From an uncultured Lachnospiraceae bacterium (GTDB lineage: Bacteria; Bacillota; Clostridia; Lachnospirales; Lachnospiraceae), in assembly GCA_947594855.1 (NCBI GenBank), contig CANQEL010000017.1, positions 1-50,410 of the forward strand: a DNA stretch of 50,410 nt. Direction: 5' to 3'. The position numbers and the translations under genes were made by a program. Below are positions 11,499-28,807 of the stretch, piece by piece; positions within the stretch are counted from its first letter, which is position 1, and each line of letters starts with the position of its first letter. The notes beneath the pieces are model-generated. The model worked only from the letters and a program-made list of their open reading frames with translations, searched no databases and had not been told where the DNA came from.

Positions 11499-11532
11499 AA
11501 TATGCACCTCAACAGTTTAAAATATATTTTTT

Positions 11533-11565
11533 GATAAAAAAAGCTGCTACATAAGTAACAGCTTT
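11533..11565 (-). terminator. rpsT terminator
   Basis: On the minus strand AAAGCTGTTAC and GTAGCAGCTTT pair around a 4-base loop and run into a T tract (TTTTTATC). It lies 18 bases beyond the rpsT stop. Confidence 0.9.
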
Positions 11566-11582
11566 GATATATTGTCAGTAAA

Positions 11583-11846
11583 TTATGCTAATTTGTTGAC
11601 AGCAAGAGTAAGTCTTGAAATCTTTCTTGATGCCGTATTTTTGTGGTATATACCTTTACGCTGTGCTTTATCTATCTCTGAAATTGCATTCTTTAATGCA
11701 ACTGCAGCCGCTTCAGAGTCTTTGGCAGCAACGGCAGCATCTACCTTTTTAACAGCTGTCTTTACTTTAGAACGAATTGACTTGTTTTTTTCAGCTTTGG
11801 TCTTATTAACCAGAATTCTTTTCTTGGCAGACTTAATATTAGCCAT
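11583..11846 (-). CDS. rpsT: 30S ribosomal protein S20
   Basis: A primary 16S rRNA-binding protein of the small ribosomal subunit. The 87-residue, very basic sequence begins MANIKSAKKRILVNKTKAEKN and ends with an Ala/Lys-rich helix, as in all S20 proteins. The start at 11846 follows AGGAGGTGTT at ideal spacing; an in-frame extension to 11918 crosses that ribosome site and is rejected. It has its own promoter and terminator and lies divergent from gpr, its usual neighbour in Firmicutes. Confidence 0.97.
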   Translation of the reverse strand: MANIKSAKKRILVNKTKAEKNKSIRSKVKTAVKKVDAAVAAKDSEAAAVALKNAISEIDKAQRKGIYHKNTASRKISRLTLAVNKLA

Positions 11847-11924
11847 ATTAACACCTCCTGTGTATTCAGATTCATAAGCGGCATATAGGGAGACACGATA
11901 AAACCTACTTATGCACACTTTGTT

Positions 11925-11953
11925 ATTCTATTATAAAAGATTTCCAATGTCAA
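11925..11953 (-). promoter_or_regulatory. rpsT promoter
   Basis: Read on the minus strand, TTGACA and TAGAAT are 17 bases apart, giving a leader of about 70 bases before the rpsT ATG. Confidence 0.75.
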
Positions 11954-12055
11954 TACTAAAATTATAAATTTAAGTTATATATGTTTAATTCTAAAGAAAG
12001 CTGCAGAATAATATATTATGCTTTTGCATAGACTATCACAAAGAGGTGAGAAGCC

Positions 12056-12979: not shown

Positions 12980-12989
12980 GGAGAATATA

Positions 12990-14319: not shown

Positions 14320-14338
14320 ACCTATCAAAAAAGTAGGT
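14320..14338 (+). promoter_or_regulatory. Sulfur-island operator, site 1
   Basis: ACCTAT-N7-GTAGGT, one base off the perfect form ACCTAT-N7-ATAGGT seen at sites 3 and 4. It lies between promoter and ribosome site of the LysR gene. A likely repressor is the neighbouring Rrf2-type protein. Confidence 0.65.
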
Positions 14339-14356: not shown

Positions 14357-15265
14357 ATGACATTGCAGCAACTATTATATACCGTTAAAATTGCCGAAAC
14401 CAAATCAATGAATAAGGCAGCTGCAGAATTATTTGTTTCACAGCCTGCACTTTCAAGCGCTATTCATGAACTGGAAGAAGAGCTGAATATTGATATATTT
14501 ATACGTAACAAAAGAGGAATTATAGTAACGGCGGAAGGGGAGAACTTTTTAAGTTACGCAAGACAGATGGTTGAATTGAGCCAGATGATTAAAGAGCGGT
14601 ATTCGTCAGATGAAAACAGGGAAAATAAGTTTAGTGTATCGATGCAGCATTATTCATTTGCGGTAGAAGCATTTATGACACTTGCAAAAGAGTTCGGGCT
14701 TAATGATTATGAGCTTGCGGTTCACGAAACAAAGACCTCAGAAGTTATTGAAAATGTGGAAAAATTCCGGAGTGAACTTGGAATTATTTATCAGAATGAA
14801 TTTAATCAAGTGGCAATAAACAGAATACTTTCAGACAGGGAACTTGAATTTATTCCGTTATTTAAGTGTGAAGTATATGTGTATATGAGCGCGGGACATC
14901 CGCTTGCCGGCCATAAAAAAATTGAACTTGATGAATTACTTGAGTATCCATGCCTGTCATTTGAACAGGGGGATAATAATTCATTTTATTATTCGGAGGA
15001 GATGTTTTCAACATATAAGTTCAGGCGTGTCATTAAAGCTGATGACAGGGCAACGATGCTTAACCTGATGACGGGAATGGACGGTTTTACTTTATGTTCC
15101 GGCATAATATGTGAAAAATTAAATGGCGATGGATATGTTGCAATTCCTCTTTCTACAAGCGAGAAAATGACGATAGGCTATATTAAAAAGAAAAGGATGC
15201 CGCTAAGTCTGCTTGGAGAAAGATATATTTCCATCTTAAAAGGATATTCGTCTGACACTGACTAA
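14357..15265 (+). CDS. LysR-family transcriptional regulator
   Basis: A 302-residue LysR-type regulator. Residues 1-60 form the winged helix-turn-helix (MTLQQLLYTVKIAETKSMNKAAAELFVSQPALSSAI region with the NKAAAELFVSQPALS core), followed by a linker helix and a periplasmic-binding-protein-like effector domain from about residue 90. Regulators of this class often control cysteine and sulfur genes together with an inducer, which fits its place at the head of a sulfur island, but the effector is unknown. GAAAGGTGA precedes the ATG. Its promoter carries the island palindrome, and its stop overlaps by 4 bases the stop of the convergent Rrf2 gene. Confidence 0.85.
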   Translation: MTLQQLLYTVKIAETKSMNKAAAELFVSQPALSSAIHELEEELNIDIFIRNKRGIIVTAEGENFLSYARQMVELSQMIKERYSSDENRENKFSVSMQHYSFAVEAFMTLAKEFGLNDYELAVHETKTSEVIENVEKFRSELGIIYQNEFNQVAINRILSDRELEFIPLFKCEVYVYMSAGHPLAGHKKIELDELLEYPCLSFEQGDNNSFYYSEEMFSTYKFRRVIKADDRATMLNLMTGMDGFTLCSGIICEKLNGDGYVAIPLSTSEKMTIGYIKKKRMPLSLLGERYISILKGYSSDTD

Positions 15266-15693
15266 ATAATATATTCGCAACTGTCCTGATTTTTGTTAAT
15301 AATGCTTTGAAGTGTTATTCCATCTAAATATTCAGTAATAACATTGTACAGGCCATGGTATAGAGGCAGTGTAAGACAGTTTTCACAATTTTCGCAGAGG
15401 TTAGGAACATTATCCATACAACTTACCGGAGTAAGGCTTCCTTCAGCGCTTAGAAGAATTTCTTTTATAGTTATTTCAGAAGGATGCTTCGCCAGCATAT
15501 AGCCGCCCATGTGTCCTTTATTAGATGCTAAGAGCCCGCTGCGGTTTAGAAAAGGTATTATTTGTTCAAGATACTTTTTGGAAATATTCTGGCGTGCCGC
15601 TATATCTTTAAGAGCTATATAACCTTCGGTGTAATGTTGCGCAAGGTCAATCATAAATCTCAATGAATAACGCCCGCGAGTAGATATTTTCAT
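15262..15693 (-). CDS. Rrf2-family regulator, CymR/IscR-like
   Basis: A 143-residue Rrf2 repressor. The N-terminus MKISTRGRYSLRFMIDLA with the winged HTH and the recognition segment NISKKYLEQIIPFLNRSGLL is characteristic. Four cysteines occur at residues 92, 100, 103 and 106; the first matches the first [2Fe-2S] ligand position of IscR, so a cluster is possible. CymR, the cysteine repressor of Firmicutes, is in the same family and works with CysK; here cysK lies 2.6 kb away. The start at 15693 follows AGGAGG; an extension to 15762 runs through the promoter. It is probably autoregulated and the best candidate for binding the ACCTAT palindromes. Confidence 0.88.
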   Translation of the reverse strand: MKISTRGRYSLRFMIDLAQHYTEGYIALKDIAARQNISKKYLEQIIPFLNRSGLLASNKGHMGGYMLAKHPSEITIKEILLSAEGSLTPVSCMDNVPNLCENCENCLTLPLYHGLYNVITEYLDGITLQSIINKNQDSCEYII

Positions 15694-15729
15694 AATAACT
15701 CCTCCTTTTATAATGCGTAGTATATTAAA

Positions 15730-15762
15730 ACCTATAATACCATAGAAATAGTAAGTATTCAA
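15730..15762 (-). promoter_or_regulatory. Rrf2 gene promoter with a partial operator
   Basis: On the minus strand TTGAAT and TATTAT are 17 bases apart. The -10 box lies inside CTATGGTATTATAGGT, an imperfect palindrome that contains one exact ATAGGT half-site. This suggests autorepression, though the second half-site is degenerate (ATAGAA at 6-base spacing). Confidence 0.6.
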
Positions 15763-15812: not shown

Positions 15813-16979
15813 ATGGAATTAAAATTTTCAACAAAATGTATTTACGGAAATAAGGCAAAGCTGAATGGGGAACCTACCGGAACAATTAGTTTTCCAATAT
15901 ACCAGACAGCAACATATGCACATCCGGAGGTTGGGAAAAGTACAGGTTTCGATTACTCAAGACTCCAGAATCCTACCAGACAGCAATTGGAAAAAGTCGT
16001 GGCCTCCCTGGAAAATGGAATAGATGCCCTTGCGTTTTCAAGTGGTATGGCGGCAATTACCGCACTTATGGAAATATTTAGGCCAGGAGATCATCTGATT
16101 ACTGACGCTGATCTTTATGGTGGTAGTATTCGACTCTTTAATAATATAAGTGAAAAAAATGGAATTGAATTTTCACATATTAATTGCAGTAAAGAAGATG
16201 TGGAAAGTTATGTGAGAGATAATACAAAAGCTATTTTTATTGAGACTCCGACTAATCCAATGATGAATGTTGTAGATATAAGAAAAATGTCTGAGATAGC
16301 AAAAAGGCATAAACTGATACTGATTGTTGATAATACGTTCCTTTCACCATATTTCCAAAATCCGCTTGAATTGGGAGCCGATATAGTTGTACATAGTGGA
16401 ACTAAGTTTTTGGGAGGCCATAATGATACGCTTGCAGGATTTGTTGTAACGAATTCAGAGGAAATATCAGAAAAAATGAGATTTATTATCAAAACAGTAG
16501 GTTCAGGACTTGCACCAATAGATTGCTGGCTTATTTTAAGAGGTATAAAAACACTGCCGCTTCGTATGGAAAAGTCACAGGAGAATGCAAAAGCAATAGT
16601 GGAATATCTGTTTTCTTCTGATAAGGTTAATAAAGTATATTATCCGGGAATTGAAGGAAGCGAAGGATATGAAATCTGTAAAAACCAGGCAAGAGGATTC
16701 GGCTCGATGCTTACTTTTGAAGTAGCAAGTAAAGAGCTGGCGCATCATATACTTAAAGCGACAAGACTGATTCCGTTTGCAGAAAGTCTTGGCGGCGTAG
16801 AAACACTTCTTACTTACCCTGTGACACAGACTCATGCTGATGTGCCGGAAGATGTAAGGATTGCCAATGGAATTACAGACTGTGTGCTGCGTATGTCAGT
16901 TGGAATTGAGGATAAAGATGATCTGATAGCAGATTTGAAGTATGCATTTGATTCATATGACGGATATAAGGAGTTGTAA
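15813..16979 (+). CDS. Trans-sulfuration-type PLP enzyme (MetB/MccB/MetC family)
   Basis: A 388-residue enzyme of the Cys/Met-metabolism PLP family, which forms or breaks the C-S bond of cystathionine or homocysteine precursors. Hallmarks are YSRLQNPTRQQLE (near residue 48), SSGMAAI, ETPTNPMMNVVDI, and SGTKFLGGHNDTLAG with the PLP-binding Lys198. Sequence by eye does not separate cystathionine gamma-synthase, gamma-lyase and O-acetylhomoserine sulfhydrylase; pairing with a second C-S lyase and cysK favours methionine/cysteine interconversion. It runs divergent from the Rrf2 gene and is separated by 5 bases from the next gene, so the two form an operon. Confidence 0.87.
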   Translation: MELKFSTKCIYGNKAKLNGEPTGTISFPIYQTATYAHPEVGKSTGFDYSRLQNPTRQQLEKVVASLENGIDALAFSSGMAAITALMEIFRPGDHLITDADLYGGSIRLFNNISEKNGIEFSHINCSKEDVESYVRDNTKAIFIETPTNPMMNVVDIRKMSEIAKRHKLILIVDNTFLSPYFQNPLELGADIVVHSGTKFLGGHNDTLAGFVVTNSEEISEKMRFIIKTVGSGLAPIDCWLILRGIKTLPLRMEKSQENAKAIVEYLFSSDKVNKVYYPGIEGSEGYEICKNQARGFGSMLTFEVASKELAHHILKATRLIPFAESLGGVETLLTYPVTQTHADVPEDVRIANGITDCVLRMSVGIEDKDDLIADLKYAFDSYDGYKEL

Positions 16980-16984
16980 GTATA

Positions 16985-18172
16985 ATGGAAAAAAATACGA
17001 AATTTGATAAAATCATTGACAGAAAAGGAACAGACAGCCTGAAATTTGATTTTGCAAAAAGATGCGGCAAGCCTGAAGGACTTATCCCATTGTGGGTTGC
17101 AGATATGGATTTTCAGACGTCAAGCATGATTTTGGATGAGATACATAAGAGGGTGGAGCATGGGATATTCGGATATACGGAGACGGGAGAAGACTATTTT
17201 AATACTGTAGCCGGATGGCTTAAGAAGCATCATAATATGGATATTAAAAGAAACTGGCTCGTAAAAACTCCGGGCGTAGTATTTGCTCTTGCAATGGCTG
17301 TAAAAGCATATACAAAGGAAAATGATGCGATACTGATACAGCAGCCTGTCTATTATCCGTTCAGTGAAGTGGCAGAAGCTAATAACAGAGTTGTGATAAG
17401 TAACGACCTGATACTTTCAGAGGATGGAAAATATCATATTGATTTTGATGATTTTGAGAAAAAAATAGCTGAAAATGGTATAAAATTATTTTTGCTCTGC
17501 AGTCCCCATAATCCTGTCGGAAGAGTGTGGACAGAGGAGGAGCTTAGAAAAATTGCAGATATATGTATAAAGTATAATGTTATTATAGTAAGTGATGAGA
17601 TTCACCATGATTTTGTATTTGAAGGATATAGACATACATCTCTTATTAATATTGATGAAAGACTGGCAGATATGTGCGTAATCTGTACATCTCCGGCTAA
17701 AACATTTAATCTGGCGGGACTTCAGGTATCAAATATTATTATTCCTAATGCTGGACTCCGCCACAGTTTTAAAAAGCAGATTGCCGCGGCAGGATACAGC
17801 CAGCTTAATACTATTGGAATAGCTGCCTGTGAGGCTGCTTATAAATATGGCGGAGAGTGGCTTGAAAAGATAAGAAAATATCTGCAGGAAAATCTGAATT
17901 ATATAAGAGAATATATATCTTCCGAACTGCCACAGATAAGATTGATTGAACCGGAAGGAACATACCTTATATGGCTGGATTTCAGAGGATTGGGACTTTC
18001 TGAGGAGGAACTGGAGTCTTTGATAGTGAATAAGGCCGGGCTGTGGCTTGACAGAGGAAATATATTCGGAAAGACTGGAGAAGGATTTGAAAGAATTAAT
18101 ATCGCTACAAGAAAAGAAGTGCTTAAGAAAGCGCTTGATAGTATAAAGTATGCTGTAAACAACGCATTATAA
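16985..18172 (+). CDS. PatB/MalY-type C-S lyase (PLP aminotransferase fold)
   Basis: A 395-residue fold-type I PLP enzyme of the MalY/PatB group, which cleaves cystathionine or cysteine S-conjugates by beta-elimination. Diagnostic are the N-terminal DRKGTDSLKFDFAKR and LIPLWVADMDFQTS motifs, LCSPHNPVGRVW, VSDEIHHDFVF, and the PLP lysine Lys239 in SPAKTFNLAGLQVSN. The operon with the trans-sulfuration enzyme, and the sulfur island around it, support a C-S lyase role rather than amino transfer. In Bacillus, PatB is a cystathionine beta-lyase. The stretch after its stop leads straight into the cysK promoter. Confidence 0.9.
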   Translation: MEKNTKFDKIIDRKGTDSLKFDFAKRCGKPEGLIPLWVADMDFQTSSMILDEIHKRVEHGIFGYTETGEDYFNTVAGWLKKHHNMDIKRNWLVKTPGVVFALAMAVKAYTKENDAILIQQPVYYPFSEVAEANNRVVISNDLILSEDGKYHIDFDDFEKKIAENGIKLFLLCSPHNPVGRVWTEEELRKIADICIKYNVIIVSDEIHHDFVFEGYRHTSLINIDERLADMCVICTSPAKTFNLAGLQVSNIIIPNAGLRHSFKKQIAAAGYSQLNTIGIAACEAAYKYGGEWLEKIRKYLQENLNYIREYISSELPQIRLIEPEGTYLIWLDFRGLGLSEEELESLIVNKAGLWLDRGNIFGKTGEGFERINIATRKEVLKKALDSIKYAVNNAL

Positions 18173-18237
18173 GAAAAATTTATGACAGATTAAAAATAAA
18201 ATTAATAAGCTATTTGAGAATTAATCAAAAAAATGTG

Positions 18238-18266
18238 TTGACAAATAAAGAAAATATGAGTATACT
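18238..18266 (+). promoter_or_regulatory. cysK promoter
   Basis: TTGACA-17-TATACT, close to the sigma-A consensus. A strong promoter that must be held in check, consistent with the palindrome 18 bases downstream. Confidence 0.85.
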
Positions 18267-18283
18267 CATGTTAATGCTAGCAA

Positions 18284-18302
18284 ACCTATTAAAATAATAG
18301 GT
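18284..18302 (+). promoter_or_regulatory. Sulfur-island operator, site 3
   Basis: ACCTATT and AATAGGT form a perfect inverted repeat around 5 bases (ACCTAT-N7-ATAGGT). It lies in the cysK leader just past the predicted start of transcription. Confidence 0.8.
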
Positions 18303-18335
18303 AATAAAAATGAATAAGAAAAGGAGAGTAAAACT

Positions 18336-19271
18336 ATGTCAGAGATTAAAAAGAGTTCATTGGAATTAATTGGAGAAACACCGGTACTTGAGATTTCACG
18401 TTACAGCAAGGCAGCGGGCGTAGAGGGAGTAAATATTATTGCAAAGCTGGAGTATCTTAATCCGGCAGGTTCAGTGAAGGACAGGATTGCACTTGCAATG
18501 ATAGAAGATGCAGAAGAAAAAGGTATATTAAAGCCGGGAGCTACGATTATTGAGCCGACCAGCGGCAATACGGGTATAGGCCTTGCGGCAGTGGCAGCAG
18601 CTAAGGGCTATAAGGCTATACTTACGCTTCCTGAGACGATGAGTGTTGAGAGAAGAAACCTCCTTAAGGCATATGGAGCCGAGCTTGTACTTACTGATGG
18701 CGCTAAAGGCATGAAGGGTGCGATTGCCAGAGCAGAAGAGCTTAAAAATGAAATAGAAGGCTCTGTTATCTTAGGACAGTTTGTAAATCCAGCCAATCCT
18801 GCAGTACATAAGAGAACAACAGGTCCGGAGATATACAGACAGGTTGACGGAAAAGTTGATATATTTGTAGCCGGCGTAGGAACAGGCGGTACTGTTACCG
18901 GTGTAGGCGAATACTTAAAAGAGCAGAATCCTGATATTAAAGTGGTTGCAGTTGAGCCTGCCACAAGCCCGGTGTTGTCAAAGGGAACGGCAGGCGCGCA
19001 TAAGATTCAGGGAATTGGAGCAGGTTTTGTGCCTGATACCCTTAATACAAAGATATATGATGAAGTAATTGCAATAGAAAATGATGATGCATTTGCTGAA
19101 GGAAAGAAATTTGCAGTATCAGAAGGAATACTTGTAGGCATCTCATCAGGCGCAGCGTTAAAAGCGGCGACTATTCTGGCAGCAAGACCGGAGAATAAGG
19201 GCAAGAACATTGTTGTACTGCTTCCGGATTCAGGCGACAGATATCTTTCGACACCGTTATTTGCAAATTAA
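18336..19271 (+). CDS. cysK: Cysteine synthase A (O-acetylserine sulfhydrylase)
   Basis: Makes L-cysteine from O-acetylserine and sulfide with PLP. The 311-residue length is typical. The PLP lysine is Lys48 in [11 protein letters not shown]; the substrate loop [11 protein letters not shown], the phosphate-binding [10 protein letters not shown] and the [10 protein letters not shown] motif are intact. In Firmicutes CysK also forms a complex with CymR to sense cysteine, so an Rrf2 regulator close by is meaningful. It has its own strong promoter, a palindromic operator and a terminator, so it is a single-gene unit. Confidence 0.96.
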
Positions 19272-19300
19272 TATCAGTTTTAAAATGTAATATTTAATGC

Positions 19301-19335
19301 AAAATGCCATGGTTCTGTTTCCATGGCATTTTGAT
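19301..19335 (+). terminator. cysK terminator
   Basis: AAAATGCCATGG and CCATGGCATTTT form a perfect 12-bp stem with an 8-base loop, with A and T runs on either side, so it may work in both directions. Confidence 0.85.
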
Positions 19336-19378
19336 ATGCAGTTAAAGCGAATTTTATAAAAAGAATGGTGAAAGGATT

Positions 19379-20503
19379 ATGGGAACATATAAAAGTATAT
19401 CTGTAAGCGAATTATTAGGGAATAACCGGATAGTTGATGATAGTCTGCTTGTTGATATAAGAAGTGAAATTGCCTATAAGCATGGATATATCCCGAATGC
19501 GGTTTCATTACCTGAGCCGGTCGAACCTGAAATATTATTGGAAATAATGAAAGAACATGCCAAAGAAAAGGTTATACTCTATTGCAGTATTGGGGAAAGA
19601 AGCAAAGCAGTTGTCAGAGAATTATGTGAAAATGGAATAGATGCATATAATCTGACAGGAGGATATCATGAATGGCTTTTAATGAAAACAGGAGAGTTGT
19701 GCATGGATGAAAAAATACAATATGCACGACAAATGATATTGCCTGAACTTGGAGAAACAGGACAGGAAAGGATTAAAAAAGCAAGGGTTCTGGTGATTGG
19801 GGCAGGGGCATTAGGAAGTATTGCACTGACGTATCTTGCGGCGGCAGGGGTGGGAACCATAGGAATTGCAGAAGGGGATATTATAGAGCGTTCCAATCTT
19901 CACCGGCAGATTTTGTTTGATACGGATAATGTGGGTAATAAAAAGGTTTATGAAGCAAAAAGCAGATTAGAGAAAATGAATACATTTATACATATTGAGG
20001 ATTACGATACTTATGTTACACCTGATAATATTAATGATATTATTAAAAATTATGATTTTGTAATAGATGCGACAGATAATATAGAAACAAAGTTTCTAAT
20101 AAATGATGCCTGTGTTATTAATAAAATACCGTTTTGCCATGCGGGGGTTGTGGCGTTTGAAGGTCAGGTTATGACATGGGTACCGGGTGAAGCGCCATGT
20201 TATAGATGTGTATTTGAAGACATACCGGATGGATATATTCCCAACTGTGCCCAGGCCGGTATTATTGGTGCAATGGCAGGGATGATAGGTTGTATACAGG
20301 CTTTAGAGGCCATTAAGTATATAGCGTCTGTAGGCGAGCTGTTAGTAGGAAAGATATATCATATCAATGGATTAAATATGCAGACAAGAATCATTCGGAT
20401 ACCGAGAAAAAATATAAGCTGTAAAGTGTGCGGAAGAAAGCCCGTAATAACTAATGTATCGGATAATTCAGTAATGTACAAACGAAGAAATTGTATGACA
20501 TAA
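19379..20503 (+). CDS. Rhodanese-E1 (ThiF/MoeB-like) fusion protein
   Basis: A 374-residue two-domain protein. Residues about 5-105 are a rhodanese domain with an active-site loop CSIGERS, which would carry a persulfide. Residues about 115-360 are a ThiF/MoeB/HesA-type E1 enzyme that adenylates the C-terminus of a ubiquitin-like sulfur carrier: ATP loop VIGAGALGS, ERSNLHRQILF, IDATDN, and a zinc site formed by CYRC and CKVC. Known MoeZ-type proteins have the domains in the opposite order. No ThiS/MoaD-like carrier gene is visible in the window. It lies alone between the cysK terminator and the ABC operon promoter. Confidence 0.88.
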   Translation: MGTYKSISVSELLGNNRIVDDSLLVDIRSEIAYKHGYIPNAVSLPEPVEPEILLEIMKEHAKEKVILYCSIGERSKAVVRELCENGIDAYNLTGGYHEWLLMKTGELCMDEKIQYARQMILPELGETGQERIKKARVLVIGAGALGSIALTYLAAAGVGTIGIAEGDIIERSNLHRQILFDTDNVGNKKVYEAKSRLEKMNTFIHIEDYDTYVTPDNINDIIKNYDFVIDATDNIETKFLINDACVINKIPFCHAGVVAFEGQVMTWVPGEAPCYRCVFEDIPDGYIPNCAQAGIIGAMAGMIGCIQALEAIKYIASVGELLVGKIYHINGLNMQTRIIRIPRKNISCKVCGRKPVITNVSDNSVMYKRRNCMT

Positions 20504-20558
20504 GCATTATTTATAACTGATAATAGATTTTATGAAACGTTATATTGGCAAAAATGTA

Positions 20559-20586
20559 TTGACAATATTATTTGGGATGATATAAT
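20559..20586 (+). promoter_or_regulatory. Promoter of the thiazoline/sulfur-import operon
   Basis: TTGACA and TATAAT, both perfect consensus boxes with 16-base spacing. The operator lies 15 bases beyond the -10 box. Confidence 0.85.
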
Positions 20587-20601
20587 TTACAACATCAAGT
20601 A

Positions 20602-20622
20602 AACCTATGTAAAAGATAGGTT
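20602..20622 (+). promoter_or_regulatory. Sulfur-island operator, site 4
   Basis: AACCTAT-N7-ATAGGTT, a perfect 7-bp inverted repeat between the promoter and the AAGGAGG ribosome site of the lipoprotein gene. Confidence 0.8.
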
Positions 20623-20638
20623 ATAAGGAGGATGTAAA

Positions 20639-21778
20639 ATGAAAAGAGGAAAAATAATAGCTGTATTATTGACAGCGGCGCTGGCTGTAAGTTTGTTTGC
20701 AGGCTGCGGAAGCAAAGAGGAAACAGAGGCTCCGGCACAGAGTACCGAAAATGCTGAAACCGAACAGGCAGAAGACAGTGCTGAAAACGAGACAGAAAAC
20801 GAAGGAGAAAAGGATACGCTTAGAATAGTTGCATTTAATAACATGATTGCGCACGTTGATTCTATTGTGGCAAAAAATGCAGGACTTTATGAAAAAAACG
20901 GAGTGATTCCTGAGTTTACTTTCAATAATTCAAATCCTGATAATATCCAGACACTGCTTGCGGATAAAGCCGATTTAGTATCGGCAGGAGCTACGGCACT
21001 GCTTCAGTATATAGATCAGGGCTCGGACATTGTTATAATCGGCGGACAGATGTCGTCAGGCGAAACCCTTTACTGCCTGCCGGAGAGAGCAGATGAATTT
21101 TCAGAACTTACGCAGGAGACATTGGCAGGAAAGAAAGTTGGCGTTTCTAGAATGAATACCGGCGATATAGTATTCAGGAAAATTCTTAAGGATAAAGGTG
21201 TAGATCTTTCTACGATTGAATTTGTAGAGCTTGATTCACAGGCTACGGTTACTCAGGCAATTGCATCGGGCGAAGTTGATCTTGGAATTAATTTCCTTAC
21301 ATATAGGGAAGCTGCAGAGCAGCAGGGACTTGTTGCACTTACACATTTTGACGGCGAGGATGAATGGCCCGGATTTATATGCTGCCGTTTATTTACTACC
21401 AGAGAAAAACTTGAAGCAAACAGGGATGCATATAAAAATGCAGTGAAGGCGAACATAGAGGCATATGCGCTTATACAGGAAGAACCCGATAAAGCCGTGG
21501 AATATGCCCTGCAGGATCTTTCAATAGATGAAACTACACTGCGAAACCAGCTCTTTGAATATGGCCATGTTGGTATAGGACCAAATCCTGACCGGAAAAA
21601 TACGGCAGAGTTTTATCAGGCAATGGTAGATATAGGTTATAGCCAGGGAAATATTGATATAAACGATTATATTGATACTTCACTTTATACGGAAGCATTG
21701 CAGGAATTGATAAAAGAGTATCCGGATTCGCAGGTATATAAAGATCTTTGGGAAGAATCTGAAGCTACGAACAGTTGA
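20639..21778 (+). CDS. ABC transporter substrate-binding lipoprotein, SsuA/NitT/TauT type
   Basis: The extracellular capture protein of an importer. It begins with a lipoprotein signal peptide and lipobox LFAGC (lipidated Cys23), then a Glu/Ala-rich linker and a periplasmic-binding fold of the NMT1/SsuA kind ([16 protein letters not shown] near residue 80, then a domain ending near residue 370). Family members bind sulfonates, taurine, nitrate or thiamine precursors. Here the operon and operator point to a sulfur compound. AAGGAGG precedes the ATG. It is the first gene of a run of six co-directional genes. Confidence 0.88.
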
Positions 21779-21821
21779 TTTTCATCATATCGGATATATA
21801 TGGAAAAAGGTTGAAAATAAT

Positions 21822-22628
21822 ATGGAAAAAATAGTATTTGAGGATATAGCATTAGATTACCGTGAAAGAGGCGGAACAGTTTTTAATGCACTTGATGGAG
21901 TATCTTTTACGGTTAATGAAGGTGAATTTGTAAGTATAATAGGCTCTTCGGGCTGTGGAAAAAGTACAATCCTAAGCGTACTGGCAGGATTGAACGAGCC
22001 CAAAAGCGGCAGCTACAGGATAGACGGCACAGAGACAAGGGGAACGGGAAAAAACAGGGGTGTTGTGTTTCAGCACTACTCCCTGTTCCCGTGGATGACA
22101 ATACGCAAAAATATTGAATTTGGAATCAAACAGAATTTTCCGAAACAATCCAAAAAAGAACTTGCAGAAAAAGCAGACCTTTATCTGAAAAAGGTTGGGC
22201 TTAAAGGATTTGAAAACAGATACCCCTCCCAGCTGTCAGGCGGTATGCAGCAGAGAGCCGCAATTGCAAGGACACTTGCAATGGAAACAGATATTCTTCT
22301 TATGGATGAACCTTTTGGCGCTATAGATGCAAAAAACAGGATAATCCTTCAGGATCTGCTGTTAGATATACTTGATACGGCGGATGTTAAGAAAACAATT
22401 ATTTTTGTTACCCATGATGTAGATGAGGCGATTTTAATGTCTGACCGTATCTTATTTATGAAGAATAAAAAGATAGAAAAGGATATCAATGTTCCTTTTC
22501 CGAGACCAAGAAAGAGAAATGAACTGCTGGAACGCTCCGGTTTCAGGCAGTTTAGGCAGAGAATAGTAAATCTGTTTTATTTTGATGAAGATGAGAAGCA
22601 GGATTTTCAGGAAGGAGAAGGAATATGA
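21822..22628 (+). CDS. ABC transporter ATPase, SsuB/TauB type
   Basis: The ATP-hydrolysing subunit of the importer. Walker A is GSSGCGKST (residues 41-49), the Q-loop HYSLFPWM, the signature [16 protein letters not shown] and Walker [13 protein letters not shown], followed by the switch His in VTHDVDEA. The 268-residue length and the FPWMTIRKN segment are typical of nitrate/sulfonate/taurine importers. Its stop overlaps the permease start by 4 bases, which indicates translational coupling. Confidence 0.92.
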
Positions 22629-23518
22629 TGCGAAAAGTACATATGGTTTTACCGCATATTCTGTTTTTGGTTCTGGTGATACTGATATTTATGCCATCGC
22701 TTGATTCTGTGGATTCTTATATATCCTTCCTGGTTGTTGCAGTGGTGATAGAGATTGCGGTTATTGCAAAAAGAAAAAGCAGTGTGGCATGTGATATAGG
22801 TATAATCCTCTATCTGTTTCTTATTATTTGGGAATATATCACGGCAAAGGCCGGTGTGAAAAATACCATGCTTTATCCGGCACCTGAAAATGTTTTCGGG
22901 ATATTCATCAAGGATTACGCAAAAATACTGGAAGGCGTGTTAAGCTCACTGAAGTTATTGTTTATAGCTTTTGGTATAGCTATCATACTGGGAGTTGGCC
23001 TTGGACTGTTTGTAGGATTATCTGACAGGCTTTCAGGGACACTGCTTCCAATAGTAAGGGTAATAAGCCCTATTCCCCCGGTAATCTATTCACCTTATGC
23101 AGTAGCGCTCCTGCCTTCATTCAGGGCGGCGGCAATATTTGTTGTTACACTGACTATATTCTGGTCAATGTTCATGAGTATGGTGTTATCGGTCAGAGAA
23201 ATTGATAAAAAAATTATGGATTCTGCCAGAACATTAAACTTAAGCAAGGGCTCGATGATTTTACATGTATTGATTCCATACTCCCTTCCGGGAATTATAA
23301 ACAGTATATCGGTATCCGTATCTACATCTTTTCTGGTGCTGACTGCTGCGGAGATGATAGGTGCAACTTCAGGACTTGGCTGGTATGTAAAATATAATTC
23401 TGATTTTGCGAATTTTACCAAGGTTGTGTTTGGAATAGTAATGATTGGCGTAGTAGTGACCTTGCTTAATACGCTGGTTGGATTATTGAGAAAATTATTA
23501 ATCAGATGGAAAGTGTAG
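22625..23518 (+). CDS. ABC transporter permease, SsuC/TauC type
   Basis: A 297-residue membrane subunit with about eight hydrophobic segments. Two extra N-terminal helices precede the usual six-helix BPD_transp_1 core. The coupling motif with the ATPase is around [20 protein letters not shown], near residue 200. Tandem ATGs occur at 22625 and 22628; both overlap the upstream stop. It pairs with the adjacent ATPase and lipoprotein as one importer. Confidence 0.9.
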
Positions 23519-23541
23519 AAAGATTATGAAGGAGAGATAAT

Positions 23542-24225
23542 ATGGGATTTAATGAAAAAGTACATGCATATATTGCCGCCAAATATTATCAGTATCTGAC
23601 GCAGTATTTCGGAGACAGGGGAAAACAGGCGTTTTTGCATGCTACCCAGTATTACGCCCTGCAGCGGGGAAGAAGAATGGCGCAGCGTGCAATTCGCGAC
23701 GGCAGACAGCTTACGCAGGAAACTTATAATTATTATGGCGAGTGGGTTAATACTGATGAGATAAAAAAAGAAGGGTGCGCCAACGTGATAGAACCTCAGG
23801 CTGACGGCTCCATGAAGGTTACGGTCTGTCCATGGTATAACCAGTTTCAGGAAATGGACCTTCATGAGGCAGGAGAATTGTACTGCTCAGATCTTGACAG
23901 TTCAATTTCAAGAGGGTTTAACCCGTTTTTAAAATATGAAATGGTGCAGACACTTCATAATGCAGATTATTGTATCCAGCGGATACAGACCGGAAATATC
24001 TGCGCCGGCGCAGAGAAAGGGAAAAATCCGGAAAGCTTAAGGAGCTTTGAATACCACTGTGCGCATATGTACTGGTCGTATAACGAGGTGGCAGAGGCAA
24101 TATTTTTGACTGAGGGAAGGAAAGTAAGCGAAAATGTGCTTGCAGATTTTGTAAGTGATTACGGCCAGGAAATGGCAGATACCCTGATGAAATACAGAAA
24201 TACGAATTTTAATGTATGTGATTAG
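23542..24225 (+). CDS. ATC hydrolase family protein
   Basis: A 227-residue soluble protein whose C-terminal half matches the pattern of the L-2-amino-thiazoline-4-carboxylic acid hydrolase family: VTVCPWYNQF (Cys96), GELYCSDLDSSISRGFNP (Cys115) and DYCIQRI. In Pseudomonas the founding enzyme opens the thiazoline ring of ATC to give a carbamoyl-cysteine. An N-terminal helical part of about 80 residues is rich in Tyr and Arg. A GGAGAGA ribosome site precedes the ATG. Lying between a sulfonate-type importer and an M20 amidohydrolase, it probably opens or desulfurises an imported S-heterocycle. The family also has members of unknown function, so the substrate is inferred. Confidence 0.75.
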   Translation: MGFNEKVHAYIAAKYYQYLTQYFGDRGKQAFLHATQYYALQRGRRMAQRAIRDGRQLTQETYNYYGEWVNTDEIKKEGCANVIEPQADGSMKVTVCPWYNQFQEMDLHEAGELYCSDLDSSISRGFNPFLKYEMVQTLHNADYCIQRIQTGNICAGAEKGKNPESLRSFEYHCAHMYWSYNEVAEAIFLTEGRKVSENVLADFVSDYGQEMADTLMKYRNTNFNVCD

Positions 24226-24245
24226 AAGTGTGGGGAAAGAAGAAT

Positions 24246-25430
24246 ATGAATTTTGCGGCGGAAGCATTGAAACAGGAAAATTATATAATTGAAATACGCA
24301 GATATTTTCACAAACATCCCGAACTTTCATTTAAAGAATATGAGACGACGGAAAAAATAGCGGAAGAGTTAAAAAAGATGGATATTGAACCGCATTTTTA
24401 TGACGGACTGACCGGATGTTATGCCATAATAGGGAACAAAAACGGCAAAACTTCGCAGAAAACGGTCGCACTTAGGGCTGATATAGACGCGCTTCCGGTA
24501 GAAGAAAAGACAGACCTTCCTTATAAGAGCTGTGTACAGGGGGCTATGCACGCATGCGGCCATGACTGCCATGCGGCTATGCTTTTGGGAGCGGCAAAGT
24601 TATTAAAAAAACACGAAAAAGAATTAAATGGCAGGGTAAAACTTATTTTTCAGGCAGCTGAAGAATCGTGTCATGGGGCCGAAAGTTATATAAAAAGAGG
24701 AATTCTTAACGATGTAGATGTTATATATGGCACCCATGTATGGGCACATCTTGATGCGCCTTATATGAATTTCGAGCCGGGATACAGAATGGCGGGATGT
24801 GACAATTTTTCCCTTGATGTGTACGGAAGGTCTGCCCATGGTTCAATGCCGCAGCAGGGAGCAGATGCAATAGTGTCGGCGGCGGCAATAATTATGAATA
24901 TACAGACTTTGGTTTCCAGAAAAAATGACGCGCGAAGTCCGCTTGTTATTACCGTTGGACAAATAGAGGGAGGACAGAACTTTAATATTATTGCAAATAA
25001 GGTTACCTTAAAAGGAACTGTCAGAACATGTGATGCGCAAACGAGACAATCGGTGGAGGAATGGATACGTGAAACGGCGGAAAATACGGCAGCGGTATTT
25101 AAGACGACGGCAAAACTGACATATCAGTATTTTGCACCGCCGCTTTACAATGATGACGGACTGGCAGGGCTTGCGCAAAATGCTGCGGCAAAGCTCTATG
25201 GCAATGAAGTATTAAGACCGGTGCAGGCGACCATGGGAAGCGAGGATTTTTCTTACTTTTCGGAAAAAATCCCGGCTGTGTATGGGTATCTTGGCATTAG
25301 GAATGAAAAAAGCGGCGCTGTGTATCCTCATCATAGTGACCATTTTTTGGCTGATGAAGGGGTACTGCACAGAGGGGCAGCTATGTATACGCAATTTGCG
25401 TGGGATTATTTAGACCAAAATACGATATGA
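24246..25430 (+). CDS. M20-family metal-dependent amidohydrolase
   Basis: A 394-residue enzyme of the hippuricase/IAA-amino-acid hydrolase branch of the M20 family. It uses two metal ions to remove N-acyl or N-carbamoyl groups from amino acids. Seen motifs are RRYFHKHPELSFKEYET, ALRADIDALP, MHACGHDCHAAML, FQAAEESCHGA and the TMGSEDFSYF ligand region. In Bacillus sulfur operons, relatives deacylate N-acetyl-cysteine derivatives; in the ATC pathway an M20-type enzyme releases cysteine from N-carbamoyl-cysteine. I start at the ATG at 24246; a GTG at 24228 is possible. It follows the ATC-hydrolase gene by 20 bases. Confidence 0.88.
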   Translation: MNFAAEALKQENYIIEIRRYFHKHPELSFKEYETTEKIAEELKKMDIEPHFYDGLTGCYAIIGNKNGKTSQKTVALRADIDALPVEEKTDLPYKSCVQGAMHACGHDCHAAMLLGAAKLLKKHEKELNGRVKLIFQAAEESCHGAESYIKRGILNDVDVIYGTHVWAHLDAPYMNFEPGYRMAGCDNFSLDVYGRSAHGSMPQQGADAIVSAAAIIMNIQTLVSRKNDARSPLVITVGQIEGGQNFNIIANKVTLKGTVRTCDAQTRQSVEEWIRETAENTAAVFKTTAKLTYQYFAPPLYNDDGLAGLAQNAAAKLYGNEVLRPVQATMGSEDFSYFSEKIPAVYGYLGIRNEKSGAVYPHHSDHFLADEGVLHRGAAMYTQFAWDYLDQNTI

Positions 25431-25465
25431 AAGAGTATTTGCTATATGGAAATGGAGGAATTAAG

Positions 25466-26269
25466 ATGGGTAAAGCGATAGGATTTGTTGGCGGAGGAAA
25501 TATGGCAGAGGGTATTATAAACGGACTTCTGGCTTCCAAAGCAAAAAGCACATCTGAAATATTGGTTAAAGAAATACTTGAAGAAAGAAAACAATATCTG
25601 AATGAAACTTACGGAATTAAAATAATAGAAGAGATGGCTGAAATTGCAAATCAGGCGGATATACTTATACTGGCAGTGAGACCACAGGATGCAGAATCTG
25701 TTGCCTTAGAACTTTCCAATTATATAACGAAGGAAAAAATTGTAGTTTCAATCTGTGCGGGAATACAGATTAGTAGACTTAATGAATGGCTTGGCAATAA
25801 TATAAAACTGGCAAGGATTATGCCAAATACTATGATACAGGTTAAAAAGGGTTATAGTGCGCTGGCTTTCGGAGATGGCTTTAACAAAGAAGAAAAGACG
25901 GATGTACAGGTTATTACTGATGCTATAGGTAAGACGCTTATATTGCCGGAATCGCAGTTTGACGCATTCACCGCTTTAGGATGCGCAGGAGCAGAGTGGG
26001 TTATTCTCTTTGCCACAGCTTTGACAGATGCAGGCGTAGAGACAGGAATTTCACGTGAAAACGCAAAAAAGATAGTATATGAAAATCTTGAGGCGGTGGG
26101 CAGAATGCTTGCCACATCAAATAAGCATCCATATCAGATTACGGATGAAATGAATACTCCGGGCGGTATTGGAATTGCAGGATTTCACAGTTTCCAGAGT
26201 GCCGGGCTTGGCGGAATTGTTATGGATGCAGTATATGCAGCTTATAAAAGAACTGTGGAATTGGGATAA
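25466..26269 (+). CDS. Divergent pyrroline-5-carboxylate reductase-like protein
   Basis: A 267-residue member of the ProC family, NAD(P)H-dependent imine reductases that normally make proline. The N-terminal Rossmann motif GFVGGGNMAEGI and RIMPNTMIQVKKGYSAL are clear. Two conserved ProC substrate-site segments are changed: the usual SGSGPAY is GCAGAEW at 172-178, and the usual SPGGTT is TPGGIG at 231-236. It may therefore act on an imine other than P5C, or have another role. The start follows GGAGG; longer frames overlap the upstream gene. It closes the import operon, with 35 bases separating it from the M20 gene. Confidence 0.8.
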   Translation: MGKAIGFVGGGNMAEGIINGLLASKAKSTSEILVKEILEERKQYLNETYGIKIIEEMAEIANQADILILAVRPQDAESVALELSNYITKEKIVVSICAGIQISRLNEWLGNNIKLARIMPNTMIQVKKGYSALAFGDGFNKEEKTDVQVITDAIGKTLILPESQFDAFTALGCAGAEWVILFATALTDAGVETGISRENAKKIVYENLEAVGRMLATSNKHPYQITDEMNTPGGIGIAGFHSFQSAGLGGIVMDAVYAAYKRTVELG

Positions 26270-26369: not shown

Positions 26370-27284
26370 ATGGAATATGTGCTTAAAACGGATTCTTTGA
26401 GTAAAAATTACCGGCACTTTAAAGCGCTTGACAAGCTTACGATGAATGTTCCTGAAGGGGCGATATATGGGCTGGTCGGCAGAAACGGTGCCGGTAAGAC
26501 AACTCTTATAAGGCTTATCTGCGGACTGCAGGAGCCTTCATCAGGAAGTTACATACTTTATGGAAAAAAGAACTCGGAAAGGGATATTATTAAGGTGCGC
26601 AGAAGAATGGGTGCGGTAGTAGAGACTCCTGCGATATATCCCGATATGACGGCGCGGGATAATCTTAAAATGATATATCGTATATTGGGCCTGACATCTT
26701 TTGACGGAATCGATGATATATTGGAACTTGTGGGGCTTTCCGGTACCGGAAAGAAAAAAGCCGGACATTTTTCGTTTGGTATGAGGCAGCGCCTTGGAAT
26801 TGGCATTGCGCTTGCAGGCGACCCTGATTTTCTTATCCTTGACGAACCGGCAAACGGACTTGACCCGCAGGGGATTATAGAGATACGTGAACTTATACTT
26901 AAGCTTAACCGAAGTTATCAGATTACAGTACTTATATCAAGTCATATCCTTGACGAATTATCAAGGTTTGCGACACATTACGGATTTATGGATAAAGGCC
27001 GTATAGTTAAAGAAATTAGTGCGAAAGAGCTTAATGATTCGTGCAGAAAATGTATCCGTATAGAGGTAAACAATATTAAAGCGCTTGCCTGTGTCCTTGA
27101 TGATATGGATATTCAGTATGAGATTCTTTCCGACGCCTGCGCCGATATATTTGCGGAGGTTAATATATCTAAACTTGTAACGTCATTGTCGGATAAAAAC
27201 TGTGAAATACTTTCCGTGAAAGAGCGCAATGAAAGCCTGGAGGGCTATTATATGAGTCTTGTGGGAGGTGACAGGGATGCGTAA
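26370..27284 (+). CDS. ABC transporter ATPase, BcrA-like
   Basis: The nucleotide-binding subunit of an exporter-type ABC system. Walker A is GRNGAGKTT (residues 37-45), the signature reads FSFGMRQRLGIGIALAG and Walker B FLILDEPANGLDPQG. The 304-residue length, with a C-terminal extension of about 80 residues, is usual for BcrA and lantibiotic-immunity ATPases. It heads a four-gene operon with an ABC-2 permease, a response regulator and a histidine kinase; such sets typically sense and remove cell-envelope antibiotics or peptides. A relation to bacitracin or lantibiotics is inference only. Confidence 0.9.
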   Translation: MEYVLKTDSLSKNYRHFKALDKLTMNVPEGAIYGLVGRNGAGKTTLIRLICGLQEPSSGSYILYGKKNSERDIIKVRRRMGAVVETPAIYPDMTARDNLKMIYRILGLTSFDGIDDILELVGLSGTGKKKAGHFSFGMRQRLGIGIALAGDPDFLILDEPANGLDPQGIIEIRELILKLNRSYQITVLISSHILDELSRFATHYGFMDKGRIVKEISAKELNDSCRKCIRIEVNNIKALACVLDDMDIQYEILSDACADIFAEVNISKLVTSLSDKNCEILSVKERNESLEGYYMSLVGGDRDA

Positions 27285-28110
27285 ACTTTTATCTGCTGAT
27301 TTTATAAGATTATTTAAAAGCAAAGAGTTTTATATAATGGGCGCAATAGTTATTATTATATCCTGTATCCGCGCTTTTGACATTATTGTTGAAGATGTCG
27401 GGGAAATGTCAGATGGGCTTTGGATATATGCAGTTTTTATGGGAATTGTTATGGCGTGCTTTATAGGTTTGTTTACGGGTACCGAACACAGCAGCAATAC
27501 AATACGGAATAAATTAATAACAGGGCACAGACGCAGGGATATCTATCTGTCTGATTATATTGTATGCACCGTTTCCGGTTCAATATTCTGTTTGTGCAGT
27601 ATTATAATAACATACGCCGCCATAGTGGGAAAAGGCGTTGAAAATGCCAATATGGATATAGTTATATCAGAGGCTTTGCTTATGTTTTTTATAAATGCTG
27701 CGTATAGTGCGGTGTTTGTAATGGTTTCGATGCTTAATACACAAAAAGCGGCTGCTGCGGTCATAAGTATAATCCTTGCGCTATTTCTGCTCATTGCCGG
27801 CATAGGTATACAGGAAGGGCTTTTAGAACCTCAAAAAGTGGTTATGATATATCCGTACCCATCTGACGAAGATGAAATAACGAGTGAAATGTTTGAGGAC
27901 AATACAAGATATGTGGCGGGAATTAAAAGAAAAGTATATAATGTAATTAATGATACATCCCCGGCAGGACAGAGCATCCAGACAGCAGGAATGTTTGAAG
28001 GCGGTATTCAGGTCAGAAAAGTGATAAAATTAGCCGCATATGATATAATTATAATATTGTTTTTAAATAGTGCTGGTATTTTTATATTTAAGAAAAAAGA
28101 CATAAAATAA
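27277..28110 (+). CDS. ABC-2 type transporter permease
   Basis: A 277-residue membrane protein with six predicted helices, an HSSNTIRNKLITGHRR motif in the second loop typical of BcrB-like permeases (gate region following TGTEH), and an external loop of about 70 residues before the last helix. It starts inside the end of the ATPase gene (8-base overlap) behind GGGAGGTGA. A GTG further upstream has no ribosome site. Together with the ATPase it would form an export or detachment system for membrane-active compounds. Confidence 0.85.
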   Translation: MRKLLSADFIRLFKSKEFYIMGAIVIIISCIRAFDIIVEDVGEMSDGLWIYAVFMGIVMACFIGLFTGTEHSSNTIRNKLITGHRRRDIYLSDYIVCTVSGSIFCLCSIIITYAAIVGKGVENANMDIVISEALLMFFINAAYSAVFVMVSMLNTQKAAAAVISIILALFLLIAGIGIQEGLLEPQKVVMIYPYPSDEDEITSEMFEDNTRYVAGIKRKVYNVINDTSPAGQSIQTAGMFEGGIQVRKVIKLAAYDIIIILFLNSAGIFIFKKKDIK

Positions 28111-28132
28111 TTAATGAACCGGAGGTCTGCGC

Positions 28133-28804
28133 TTGAAAGTTATACTGGTAGTCGAAGATGATATATACGTGGGAAATATGATTGAGGAAACGCTTATAGG
28201 CGAAGGATATACTGTACTAAGGGCATATTCGGGAACCGAAGCATTGCTTGTCCTGTCTGAAAAAAGACCGGATCTTATTCTGCTTGATTTGATGCTTCCG
28301 GGGCTTGGCGGAGAAGAAATACTTGACAGTATGAAAGGAATCCCTGTCATCATAGTCAGCGCCAAAGCGGATGCAGGAGATAAAGTAAACCTTTTGCTTG
28401 GCGGTGCGGCAGATTATATTACGAAACCGTTTGATACCGGCGAACTTCTTGCGCGTATTGCGGTACAATTAAGAAATGAGCATAATAAAGTAAATAGCAA
28501 AAAACTTATGTTTGATGATATAACGCTTGATACGGACACACATGCGGTAACTGTCTCAGGTAATGATATAAAACTTACGCGTACCGAATATGCGATATTA
28601 AAAATACTGATGGGAAATCCAAAGCAGGTTGTTACCAAATCGGTAATGCTTGACAGCATATCTTACGATACGCCTGATTGTACCGAAAGTTCCCTGAAAA
28701 TGCATGTAAGCAATCTGAGAAAGAAACTCCGCGGGGCCACGGACAGGGATTATATAGAAGCAGTGTGGGGAATAGGATTTAAGATGAGGGTGGGAGCAGA
28801 GTAG
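28133..28804 (+). CDS. OmpR-family response regulator (TTG start)
   Basis: A 223-residue DNA-binding response regulator. The receiver has the acidic pair Glu8-Asp9-Asp10, phospho-acceptor Asp52 in LLDLMLPGLGG and the TKPFD lysine near residue 100. The C-terminal winged helix spans about residues 125-220, with KLTRTEYAILKIL and SLKMHVSNLRKKLR. Translation appears to start at TTG, because GGAGGT lies exactly 6 bases upstream and no ATG is in place. It probably binds the CTTTAC direct repeats ahead of the operon. Confidence 0.92.
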   Translation: MKVILVVEDDIYVGNMIEETLIGEGYTVLRAYSGTEALLVLSEKRPDLILLDLMLPGLGGEEILDSMKGIPVIIVSAKADAGDKVNLLLGGAADYITKPFDTGELLARIAVQLRNEHNKVNSKKLMFDDITLDTDTHAVTVSGNDIKLTRTEYAILKILMGNPKQVVTKSVMLDSISYDTPDCTESSLKMHVSNLRKKLRGATDRDYIEAVWGIGFKMRVGAE

Positions 28805-28807
28805 TGT

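Follow-up and report, generated by a model that had tools for sequence, protein, structure and literature searches.

The 50,410-nucleotide stretch of Lachnospiraceae DNA analyzed here (the window) carries a six-gene operon coding for an ABC importer, a protein of the ATC hydrolase family PF14196 (ATCH), an M20 amidohydrolase, and a remodeled ProC homologue, and it shares a palindromic candidate operator with cysK. Judging from homology and gene context, the operon could well be dedicated to the import and salvage of cyclic cysteine of the thiazolidine-4-carboxylate class (thioproline or 2-substituted relatives), a reading that we put forward tentatively. The operon and its upstream neighborhood comprise:

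14320..14338, no strand, putative operator copy 1 (ACCTATCAAAAAAGTAGGT), ahead of the LysR gene
14357..15265, +, LysR-family regulator (PF00126, PF03466), candidate owner of the operator
15262..15762, -, Rrf2-family regulator, CymR/IscR-like (TIGR00738, 120.6 bits, cut-off 73.3), the other candidate owner
15813..16979, +, cystathionine gamma-lyase/synthase-type PLP enzyme (profile matches)
16985..18172, +, PatB-family C-S lyase (TIGR04350, 463.2 bits, cut-off 340)
18284..18302, no strand, putative operator copy 2 (ACCTATTAAAATAATAGGT), 17 bp beyond an 11/12 promoter at 18238-18266
18336..19271, +, cysteine synthase CysK (TIGR01139, 438.1 bits, cut-off 350.95)
19379..20503, +, rhodanese-ThiF/MoeB fusion, sulfur-carrier activation type (PF00581, PF00899)
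20559..20586, +, sigma-70 promoter TTGACA-16-TATAAT (12/12 match, TG before the -10)
20603..20621, no strand, putative operator copy 3 (ACCTATGTAAAAGATAGGT), between this promoter and the SBP gene
20639..21778, +, lipoprotein-type substrate-binding protein (SBP), NMT1/SsuA superfamily (PF09084, 2.4e-18)
21822..22628, +, importer ATPase, Tau/Ssu/Nrt type (profile matches)
22625..23518, +, importer permease (PF00528)
23542..24225, +, ATCH, proposed thiazoline ring hydrolase (PF14196, ATC_hydrolase, 45.1 bits, cut-off 28.1)
24246..25430, +, M20 amidohydrolase, proposed N-acyl/N-formyl-cysteine amidase (TIGR01891, 369.6 bits, cut-off 153.75)
25466..26269, +, type I ProC homologue, proposed thiazolidine dehydrogenase or thiazoline reductase (P5CR_dimer, F420_oxidored)

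Layout and regulation of the six-gene unit

The six genes are separated by 43, -4, 23, 20, and 35 bp, and their coordinates and Pfam matches (NMT1; ABC_tran; BPD_transp_1; ATC_hydrolase; Peptidase_M20 with M20_dimer; P5CR_dimer with F420_oxidored) agree with a sequence-only reading of the same DNA, which had described co-directional genes for an importer, a PF14196 protein, an M20 enzyme, and a ProC-like protein. That reading had also called the reductase divergent, which is incorrect, the ProC gene being on the plus strand with the rest. The M20 and ProC genes more likely start at the ATGs at 24246 and 25466 than at GTGs farther upstream. ABC and two-component genes downstream (26370-29710) were rejected as operon members on the gene order of a near relative, L024 (ATCH 97% identical), in which the gene next after ProC codes for a protein that starts like the product of the window gene at 29767.

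Of the 52 promoter-like sites between 14200 and 26400, the promoter ahead of the unit is the only one that matches at 12/12; in this region shuffles average 40.8 sites of at least 9/12. Upstream of the six genes is also the palindrome AACCTAT-N7-ATAGGTT, with a 19-bp core, ACCTA-N9-TAGGT, at 20603-20621; this core occurs three times in the window, compared with a mean of 0.04 and a maximum of 1 in 200 dinucleotide shuffles. Zero-mismatch matches to ACCTAYNNAAANNNTAGGT number three genome-wide, every one of them in this cluster (before LysR, cysK, and the six-gene operon). Allowing up to one mismatch gives five sites in the genome and likewise five for a reversed-pattern control, and we therefore place weight only on the perfect sites. 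Of the loci fetched from other genomes, only L024 has a perfect operator. The consensus promoter and palindromic operator noted earlier are thus confirmed; the shared regulator site is present, but it is common to three transcription units and not confined to one.

Directly upstream of the operon are the cystathionine-lyase-type, PatB, cysK, and rhodanese-ThiF genes, and these neighbors, together with the operator shared with cysK, bear out the earlier suggestion of a regulated sulfur unit. The cystathionine gamma-lyase/synthase-type gene is missing at the corresponding place in L024, and the best match to CysE in the window's genome is under cut-off. It is plausible that one local regulator, acting through ACCTA-N9-TAGGT, places the operon under joint control with cysK and LysR, and either regulatory protein could be the one that binds. 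No equivalog or subfamily model reaches its cut-off with the LysR protein among the 25 matches listed, and the Rrf2 protein scores 110.3 bits on the CymR model, under the cut-off of 195.

The importer resembles SsuABC alkanesulfonate systems, but the SBP reaches only 77.5 bits on TIGR01728 (SsuA; cut-off 163.5) and the permease is likewise under the SsuC cut-off, and we reject sulfonate import as such. The structure model of the SBP is poor (pLDDT 65.7, from an 8-row alignment), and no solved structural relative was found at E<=0.001. ThiXYZ-YlmB-TenA systems, which salvage thiamine breakdown products, combine an NMT1/THI5-like SBP with an M20-type deformylase, and the PF09084 match and the downstream M20 enzyme recall this arrangement. 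We regard such a function as extremely improbable and reject it: ATCH and ProC would be left unexplained, no TPP riboswitch was found in the window (no Rfam match at the gathering threshold), and the genome has no match to the TenA family, for which 7 of 14 control genomes gave a match.

The two hydrolases and the second ProC copy

ATCH is the sole PF14196 match in the genome, and three cysteines and one aspartate are invariant in all 16 rows of its alignment. The M20 protein has the HACGHD, EE, GTH, and HH motifs and matches Bacillus YxeP (1ysj) at 242.5 bits (6.7e-71). YxeP is presumably ScmP, given the yxe-to-scm renaming, and ScmP is a proven N-acetylcysteine deacetylase according to the available text of PMC12757645; this homology supports the earlier reading, which had cited M20 enzymes that deacylate N-acetyl-cysteine derivatives in Bacillus. 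The Bacillus subtilis scm cluster (formerly yxe), which acts on S-(2-succino)cysteine, similarly repairs damaged cysteine and ends in an M20 N-acylcysteine deacylase. It uses an N-acetyltransferase and a monooxygenase, however, neither of which is among the 10 genes scanned (15813-26269), and the window operon has ATCH and ProC instead.

The sequence-only reading had followed the Pseudomonas pathway from 2-aminothiazoline-4-carboxylate (ATC) to L-cysteine, in which a PF14196 ring hydrolase is likewise followed by an amidohydrolase yielding cysteine; here ATCH would open ATC to carbamoyl-cysteine and M20 would decarbamoylate it. Pathways of this type expect a hydantoinase/carbamoylase-type amidohydrolase, whereas the window M20 is ScmP-like and, with 369.6 bits on TIGR01891, reaches just 37.2 bits on that model (TIGR01879, cut-off 204). 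The window also adds a remodeled ProC and an ABC importer, and there is no racemase among the six genes. The route is established in Pseudomonas (PMC10821248), where the enzyme that opens ATC belongs to the PF14196 family, and in the window a protein over the PF14196 cut-off stands upstream of an M20 enzyme. We nonetheless consider it quite unlikely here because the M20 is not of the carbamoylase type and ProC is left idle. The broader idea of converting a cyclic or N-blocked cysteine to cysteine is supported by the genomics.

The ProC homologue has the NAD(P) domain of canonical P5C reductases and exceeds the TIGR00112 cut-off (218.8 to 219.2 bits versus 196.75), but it differs in its replaced motifs and is the second, lower-scoring copy in its genome; housekeeping proline synthesis was rejected on these grounds. 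Type I proteins have MPNT[ML], CAG[PA]EW, and PGGIG where other copies have MPNTP, [ST]G.[GAS]PA[FY], and P.G[TS]T. The column that we take to be PYCR1 Thr-238, placed by motif, holds Gly in 6/6 readable type I rows (the seventh, L021, is truncated by a contig end and outside this count) and Thr in 9/9 other copies. As reported in PMC7939384, Thr-238 of PYCR1 contacts the substrate carboxylate and also, when a thiazolidine is bound, the nitrogen of the ring; plain thioproline may therefore not be the substrate of type I proteins. The sequence-only reading gave the reductase no step.

Two ProC lineages share a directon with ATCH, type I with L092 (100/100) and a canonical-like type II. A search of 397 family genomes for type I ProC (E<=1e-50) recovered the window's own copy and no other. 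In genomes G035 and G165 the operon type II ProC is the only one over cut-off, and it may simply make proline there. This, the ProC homology itself, and an Xaa-Pro-dipeptidase-like neighbor (L019) would suit a sulfur-free imino-acid pathway, in which ATCH, M20, and ProC turn an N-acylated or cyclic proline-like compound into proline. Such a pathway is improbable for the window: all seven type I genomes (7/7) have a separate, better-scoring ProC, the operator is common to the operon and cysK, and sulfur enzymes surround this operon and those of several relatives.

A possible route from thiazolidines to cysteine

Thiazolidines form when cysteine captures formaldehyde or another aldehyde, and they harm cells once they are built into peptides. 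In the salvage reading, the SBP, ATPase, and permease would bring in a cysteine-aldehyde adduct, and the type I ProC homologue would oxidize its C2-N bond with NAD(P)+ to a 2-thiazoline. ATCH would then open the ring, yielding an N-acyl-cysteine (the N-formyl compound in the case of formaldehyde), M20 would strip the acyl group to give L-cysteine, and the neighboring PatB and cystathionine-lyase-type enzymes would use or desulfurize it. The proposed chemistry and intermediates are those by which ProC, PutA/PRODH, and mitochondria oxidize thioproline through N-formylcysteine; E. coli ProC oxidizes L-thioproline (reported in PMC12899673), and bacteria and mitochondria convert thioproline to N-formylcysteine (reported in PMC9814826). 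Whereas that oxidation is known as an activity of proline enzymes, a dedicated operon is proposed here; no dedicated thioproline operon, thiazoline hydrolase gene, or bacterial genes dedicated to freeing cysteine from thiazolidines were found in the literature searched. The chemistry has long been suspected; its assignment to these candidate genes is a proposal. The genes offer a concrete three-enzyme set for testing, a candidate role for some members of family PF14196, and a possible role for second ProC copies, a question raised in the available text of PMC12899673. If the proposal is true, gut aldehyde chemistry would be linked to cysteine and sulfide supply.

Several reports temper the salvage reading. 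Oxidation by E. coli ProC was characterized at pH 10 (in the part of PMC12899673 available), and at neutral pH reduction is expected to be favored. N-formylcysteine also appeared when cysteine and formaldehyde were combined in buffer with no enzyme present, and thioproline forms reversibly, breaking down again to the same two compounds (both in PMC9814826), such that enzymes may not be needed. Both N- and S-carbamoyl-cysteine are described as ATC hydrolase products (PMC10821248, as available), and the N-acyl product of ATCH is therefore not certain. ProC-family enzymes are normally imine reductases, and the TIGR00112 score of 219.2 bits would suit a reductive route, in which a thiazoline is imported (e.g., from peptide natural products) and its reduction by ProC gives an unstable thiazolidine, which breaks up into cysteine and an aldehyde, as the reversibility of thioproline would allow, with parallel ring opening and deacylation by ATCH and M20. 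ATCH would take the thiazoline directly, although it and ProC would then compete for one substrate. We find this route rather unlikely, and clusters of the L019 and L042 types, with flavoprotein oxidoreductases of families that have oxidase or dehydrogenase members, also argue against it.

Linkage of ATCH with partner genes in relatives

Gene calls in the fetched loci are long open reading frames labeled by BLAST against 34 reference proteins. ProC is in the ATCH directon in 17/71 loci overall (7/33, 8/14, and 2/7, with 0/17 in the phylum-wide draw), although the draws from family, class, and phylum may share loci with one another and with the 33 named ones, related species are not independent, and L052, in which the ATCH frame continues from the upstream gene, is counted as without. 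That ProC is outside the ATCH directon in 26/33, 6/14, 5/7, and 17/17 loci counts against the salvage reading. M20 enzymes of other subtypes may escape the 34-protein set, most of all in the phylum draw, whose 17 loci gave no M20 match with it. Canonical ProC genes, taken from the genomes with type I and from that of L042, have an ATCH or M20 match within 1.5 kb in 0/8 loci. That ProC is repeatedly found beside ATCH suggests a putative redox partner acting on thiazolidine or thiazoline rings.

The earlier reading listed a lack of transporter-hydrolase linkage in relatives among the findings that would refute it; such linkage is seen in 20/33 loci, with two transporter types. Contig ends shorten several neighborhoods, including those of L018, L019, L021, and L047, in which no importer permease is seen. 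A wider proposal, possible but doubtful, is a gut-bacterial system for thiazolidine salvage and aldehyde-adduct repair, undescribed in the literature searched, in which a neofunctionalized ProC would be a thiazolidine dehydrogenase, PF14196 proteins would be the thiazoline hydrolases of the long-recognized thioproline to N-formylcysteine to cysteine route, and DUF5058 with the membrane protein that accompanies it would take the importer's place for substrates of this class.

Other C-N redox enzyme families also stand at ATCH loci, consistent with the oxidative direction: a nitroreductase-family protein is beside ATCH in L042 and, by BLAST, in L135, and a sarcosine-oxidase-type set is at the L019 locus, as clustering also indicates for L021 and L047. 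Many of the other ATCH neighbors would fit cysteine release. The Xaa-Pro-dipeptidase-like protein of L019 (254 bits, under the cut-off of 500) is also found by BLAST in L021, L047, and L095, and in E. coli peptides with thioproline are substrates of PepP (reported in PMC13131673 and PMC13424408). PF03313 lyase-type proteins are in 6 of the 33 ATCH directons, and the L018 neighborhood includes a hydantoinase A/oxoprolinase-family protein. Relatives come, according to their record titles, from gut and rumen samples, in keeping with the gut-type host suggested earlier.

Operon layout and the proposed pathway

The window corresponds to contig C17 of a 97.6%-complete genome of 2.48 Mb, and in it a perfect promoter and a palindrome precede six plus-strand genes:

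20639-21778, +, substrate-binding protein (SBP) of the importer
21822-22628, +, ATPase
22625-23518, +, permease
23542-24225, +, PF14196 protein of the ATC hydrolase family (ATCH)
24246-25430, +, M20 amidohydrolase
25466-26269, +, ProC homologue

The ATC hydrolase family opens the 2-thiazoline-4-carboxylate ring. We infer enzyme roles throughout the operon: the ProC homologue would oxidize a thiazolidine at C2-N to a 2-thiazoline-4-carboxylate ring, ATCH would open this ring to an N-acyl-cysteine, and the M20 enzyme would cleave that product, which belongs to the compound class split by ScmP-like M20 enzymes. Each of these reaction types is already known; E. coli ProC is reported to oxidize thioproline (PMC12899673), bacteria and mitochondria to turn thioproline into N-formylcysteine (PMC9814826), and ATC hydrolases to yield both N- and S-carbamoyl products (PMC10821248). 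Strictly, no enzyme is needed, since thioproline forms reversibly and cysteine and formaldehyde also combine in buffer to give N-formylcysteine (PMC9814826).

This operon would belong with the known cysteine-repair operons, and we know of no system dedicated to this combination of reactions. A search of mostly open-access literature, judged largely by title and abstract, found no description of an operon with this composition, and sections 2.8 and 3.3 of a survey of proC neighborhoods in 42 phyla do not mention the cluster (PMC12899673).

Genes for a cystathionine-lyase-type enzyme, PatB, CysK, a rhodanese-ThiF fusion, and a LysR regulator lie 5' of the operon on the same strand; an upstream Rrf2 gene is in the opposite orientation to the operon and the LysR gene. 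The nearest named relative, uncultured Lachnospiraceae bacterium isolate Lapin-003-2 (locus L024), has an ATCH 97% identical to that of the window. The cystathionine-lyase-type gene (15813-16979, between Rrf2 and PatB) is absent from the same place in L024 and was thus recently gained or lost. An ABC exporter and two-component block (26370-29710) following the operon is also not in L024, where ProC directly precedes the gene matching window 29767, and is a recent insertion or deletion. We note, too, a long ORF (317-1840) in which inspection by eye showed many near-identical repeats that look leucine-rich.

Linkage and neighbors of ATCH in relatives

Scanning genome contigs for ATCH gave 33 named loci, and further PF14196 loci (E≤1e-10) turned up in 14 of 199 other genomes sampled from the family, 7 of 390 from the class, and 17 of 397 from the phylum. 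ProC shares a directon with ATCH (a co-directional run with gaps of <300 bp) at 17 of the 71 loci, from draws that may overlap: 7/33 named loci (L017-L021, L024, L047), 8/14 in the family draw (L055-L062), 2/7 in the class draw (L092, L094), and 0/17 in the phylum draw. An M20 gene is in the ATCH directon at 11/33, 6/14, and 2/7 loci (the last including L097, Pfam-labeled), and none was found alongside ATCH at the 17 phylum-draw loci. As a control, no match to ATCH or M20 lies within 1.5 kb of eight canonical ProC loci, taken from the L042 genome and from the seven genomes with a window-like, or type I, ProC.

A transporter accompanies ATCH in 20 of the 33 named loci. SsuABC-type sets lie with ATCH in L018, L020, L024, and L042, and divergently at the cluster head in L019, L021, and L047 (ATPase and SBP only in L047, where the contig ends). 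DUF5058 and a second membrane protein accompany ATCH in 13/33 loci, paired 5' of ATCH in L025 (4094-5519) as in the 12 others; they look like a two-part transporter. Both proteins were scanned in L025, where the partner has no Pfam family, and DUF5058 is not mentioned in the literature searched. The L020 ATCH match has one in-frame stop (10001-10136; the ORF is open from 10136), which could reflect either a sequencing error or damage to this copy.

Many neighbors are of the kind expected if a cysteine derivative is opened at its ring, deblocked, and broken down. The L042 cluster comprises importer, ATCH, a nitroreductase-family protein, M20, cystathionine lyase, and PatB; that of L019 has a CysK-like enzyme, a sarcosine-oxidase/flavoprotein set, a second PF14196 protein, an Xaa-Pro-dipeptidase-like amidohydrolase (under the model cut-off), ATCH, ProC, and a PepT-like M20. 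In E. coli, the toxicity of thioproline is alleviated by Xaa-Pro peptidases. By clustering, L021 and L047 share the L019 gene order, with L021 stopping at ProC at a contig end, and the L018 cluster ends with a second PF14196 protein and a hydantoinase A/oxoprolinase-family protein. The second, distant PF14196 proteins in the ATCH directons (L019:7821-8471 and L018:5100-5630) suggest two different ring-opening steps. PF03313 proteins lie 3' of ATCH in L025, L028, L035, and L037 and 5' in L023 (labeled by Pfam in L025 and L023, by BLAST in the others); their size is consistent with YhaM/CyuA-type cysteine desulfidases, NCBIfam models gave no match to those of L025 and L023, and the PF03313 protein of L047 is of serine-dehydratase type.

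Other contexts do not fit cysteine release: ATCH is 3' of ksgA in L034, L050, and L051, and some copies are solitary. The L022 neighborhood (10755-13693), where TerB-domain and BREX BrxC/D-type genes follow ATCH, is defense-like and likewise does not fit. In a distant phylum member (L128, approximately 6767-8386), a PF14196 protein lies after ABC transporter genes and before a CysK homologue 59% identical to the window's CysK.

Remodeling of the ProC homologue

From its sequence, type I ProC is remodeled at the substrate site. Another ProC elsewhere in the window genome scores higher (293.1 versus 218.8 bits), as does a second ProC in the six other type I genomes. In a 27-row tree, rooted by midpoint only, the seven type I rows group together, and the ProC of L092, which comes from an M20-ATCH-ProC cluster, joins them (100/100); all lie apart from the canonical rows and those of type II, a canonical-like operon lineage. 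CAG[PA]EW is present in 7/7 type I rows, and the position of PYCR1 Thr-238 is Gly in all six readable type I rows and Thr in the nine other copies (eight canonical loci and the L017 operon copy). The L092 ProC is intermediate, with MPNTM and CAG present and Thr retained. Thr-238 is reported to bind the carboxylate of the substrate and also, in complexes with thiazolidines, the nitrogen of the ring (PMC7939384); its change in type I therefore favors a new substrate and disfavors a simple carry-over of thioproline binding.

The operator and its candidate owners

The window has three copies of ACCTA-N9-TAGGT, whereas 200 dinucleotide shuffles gave 0.04 on average:

14320, operator copy before LysR
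18284, operator copy before cysK
20603, operator copy before the SBP gene

These three are the only zero-mismatch matches to ACCTAYNNAAANNNTAGGT in the whole genome; with one mismatch allowed there are five, not above the reversed-pattern control. At cysK and the SBP gene the operator starts 16-17 bp 3' of the -10 box, where a repressor would block. We take T-N11-A within the operator to be a LysR-type box, and the Rrf2 protein is as possible an owner as the LysR regulator. Among the 33 named loci a perfect operator core is present only in L024, which has two perfect operators and one with a single change ahead of the same three genes.
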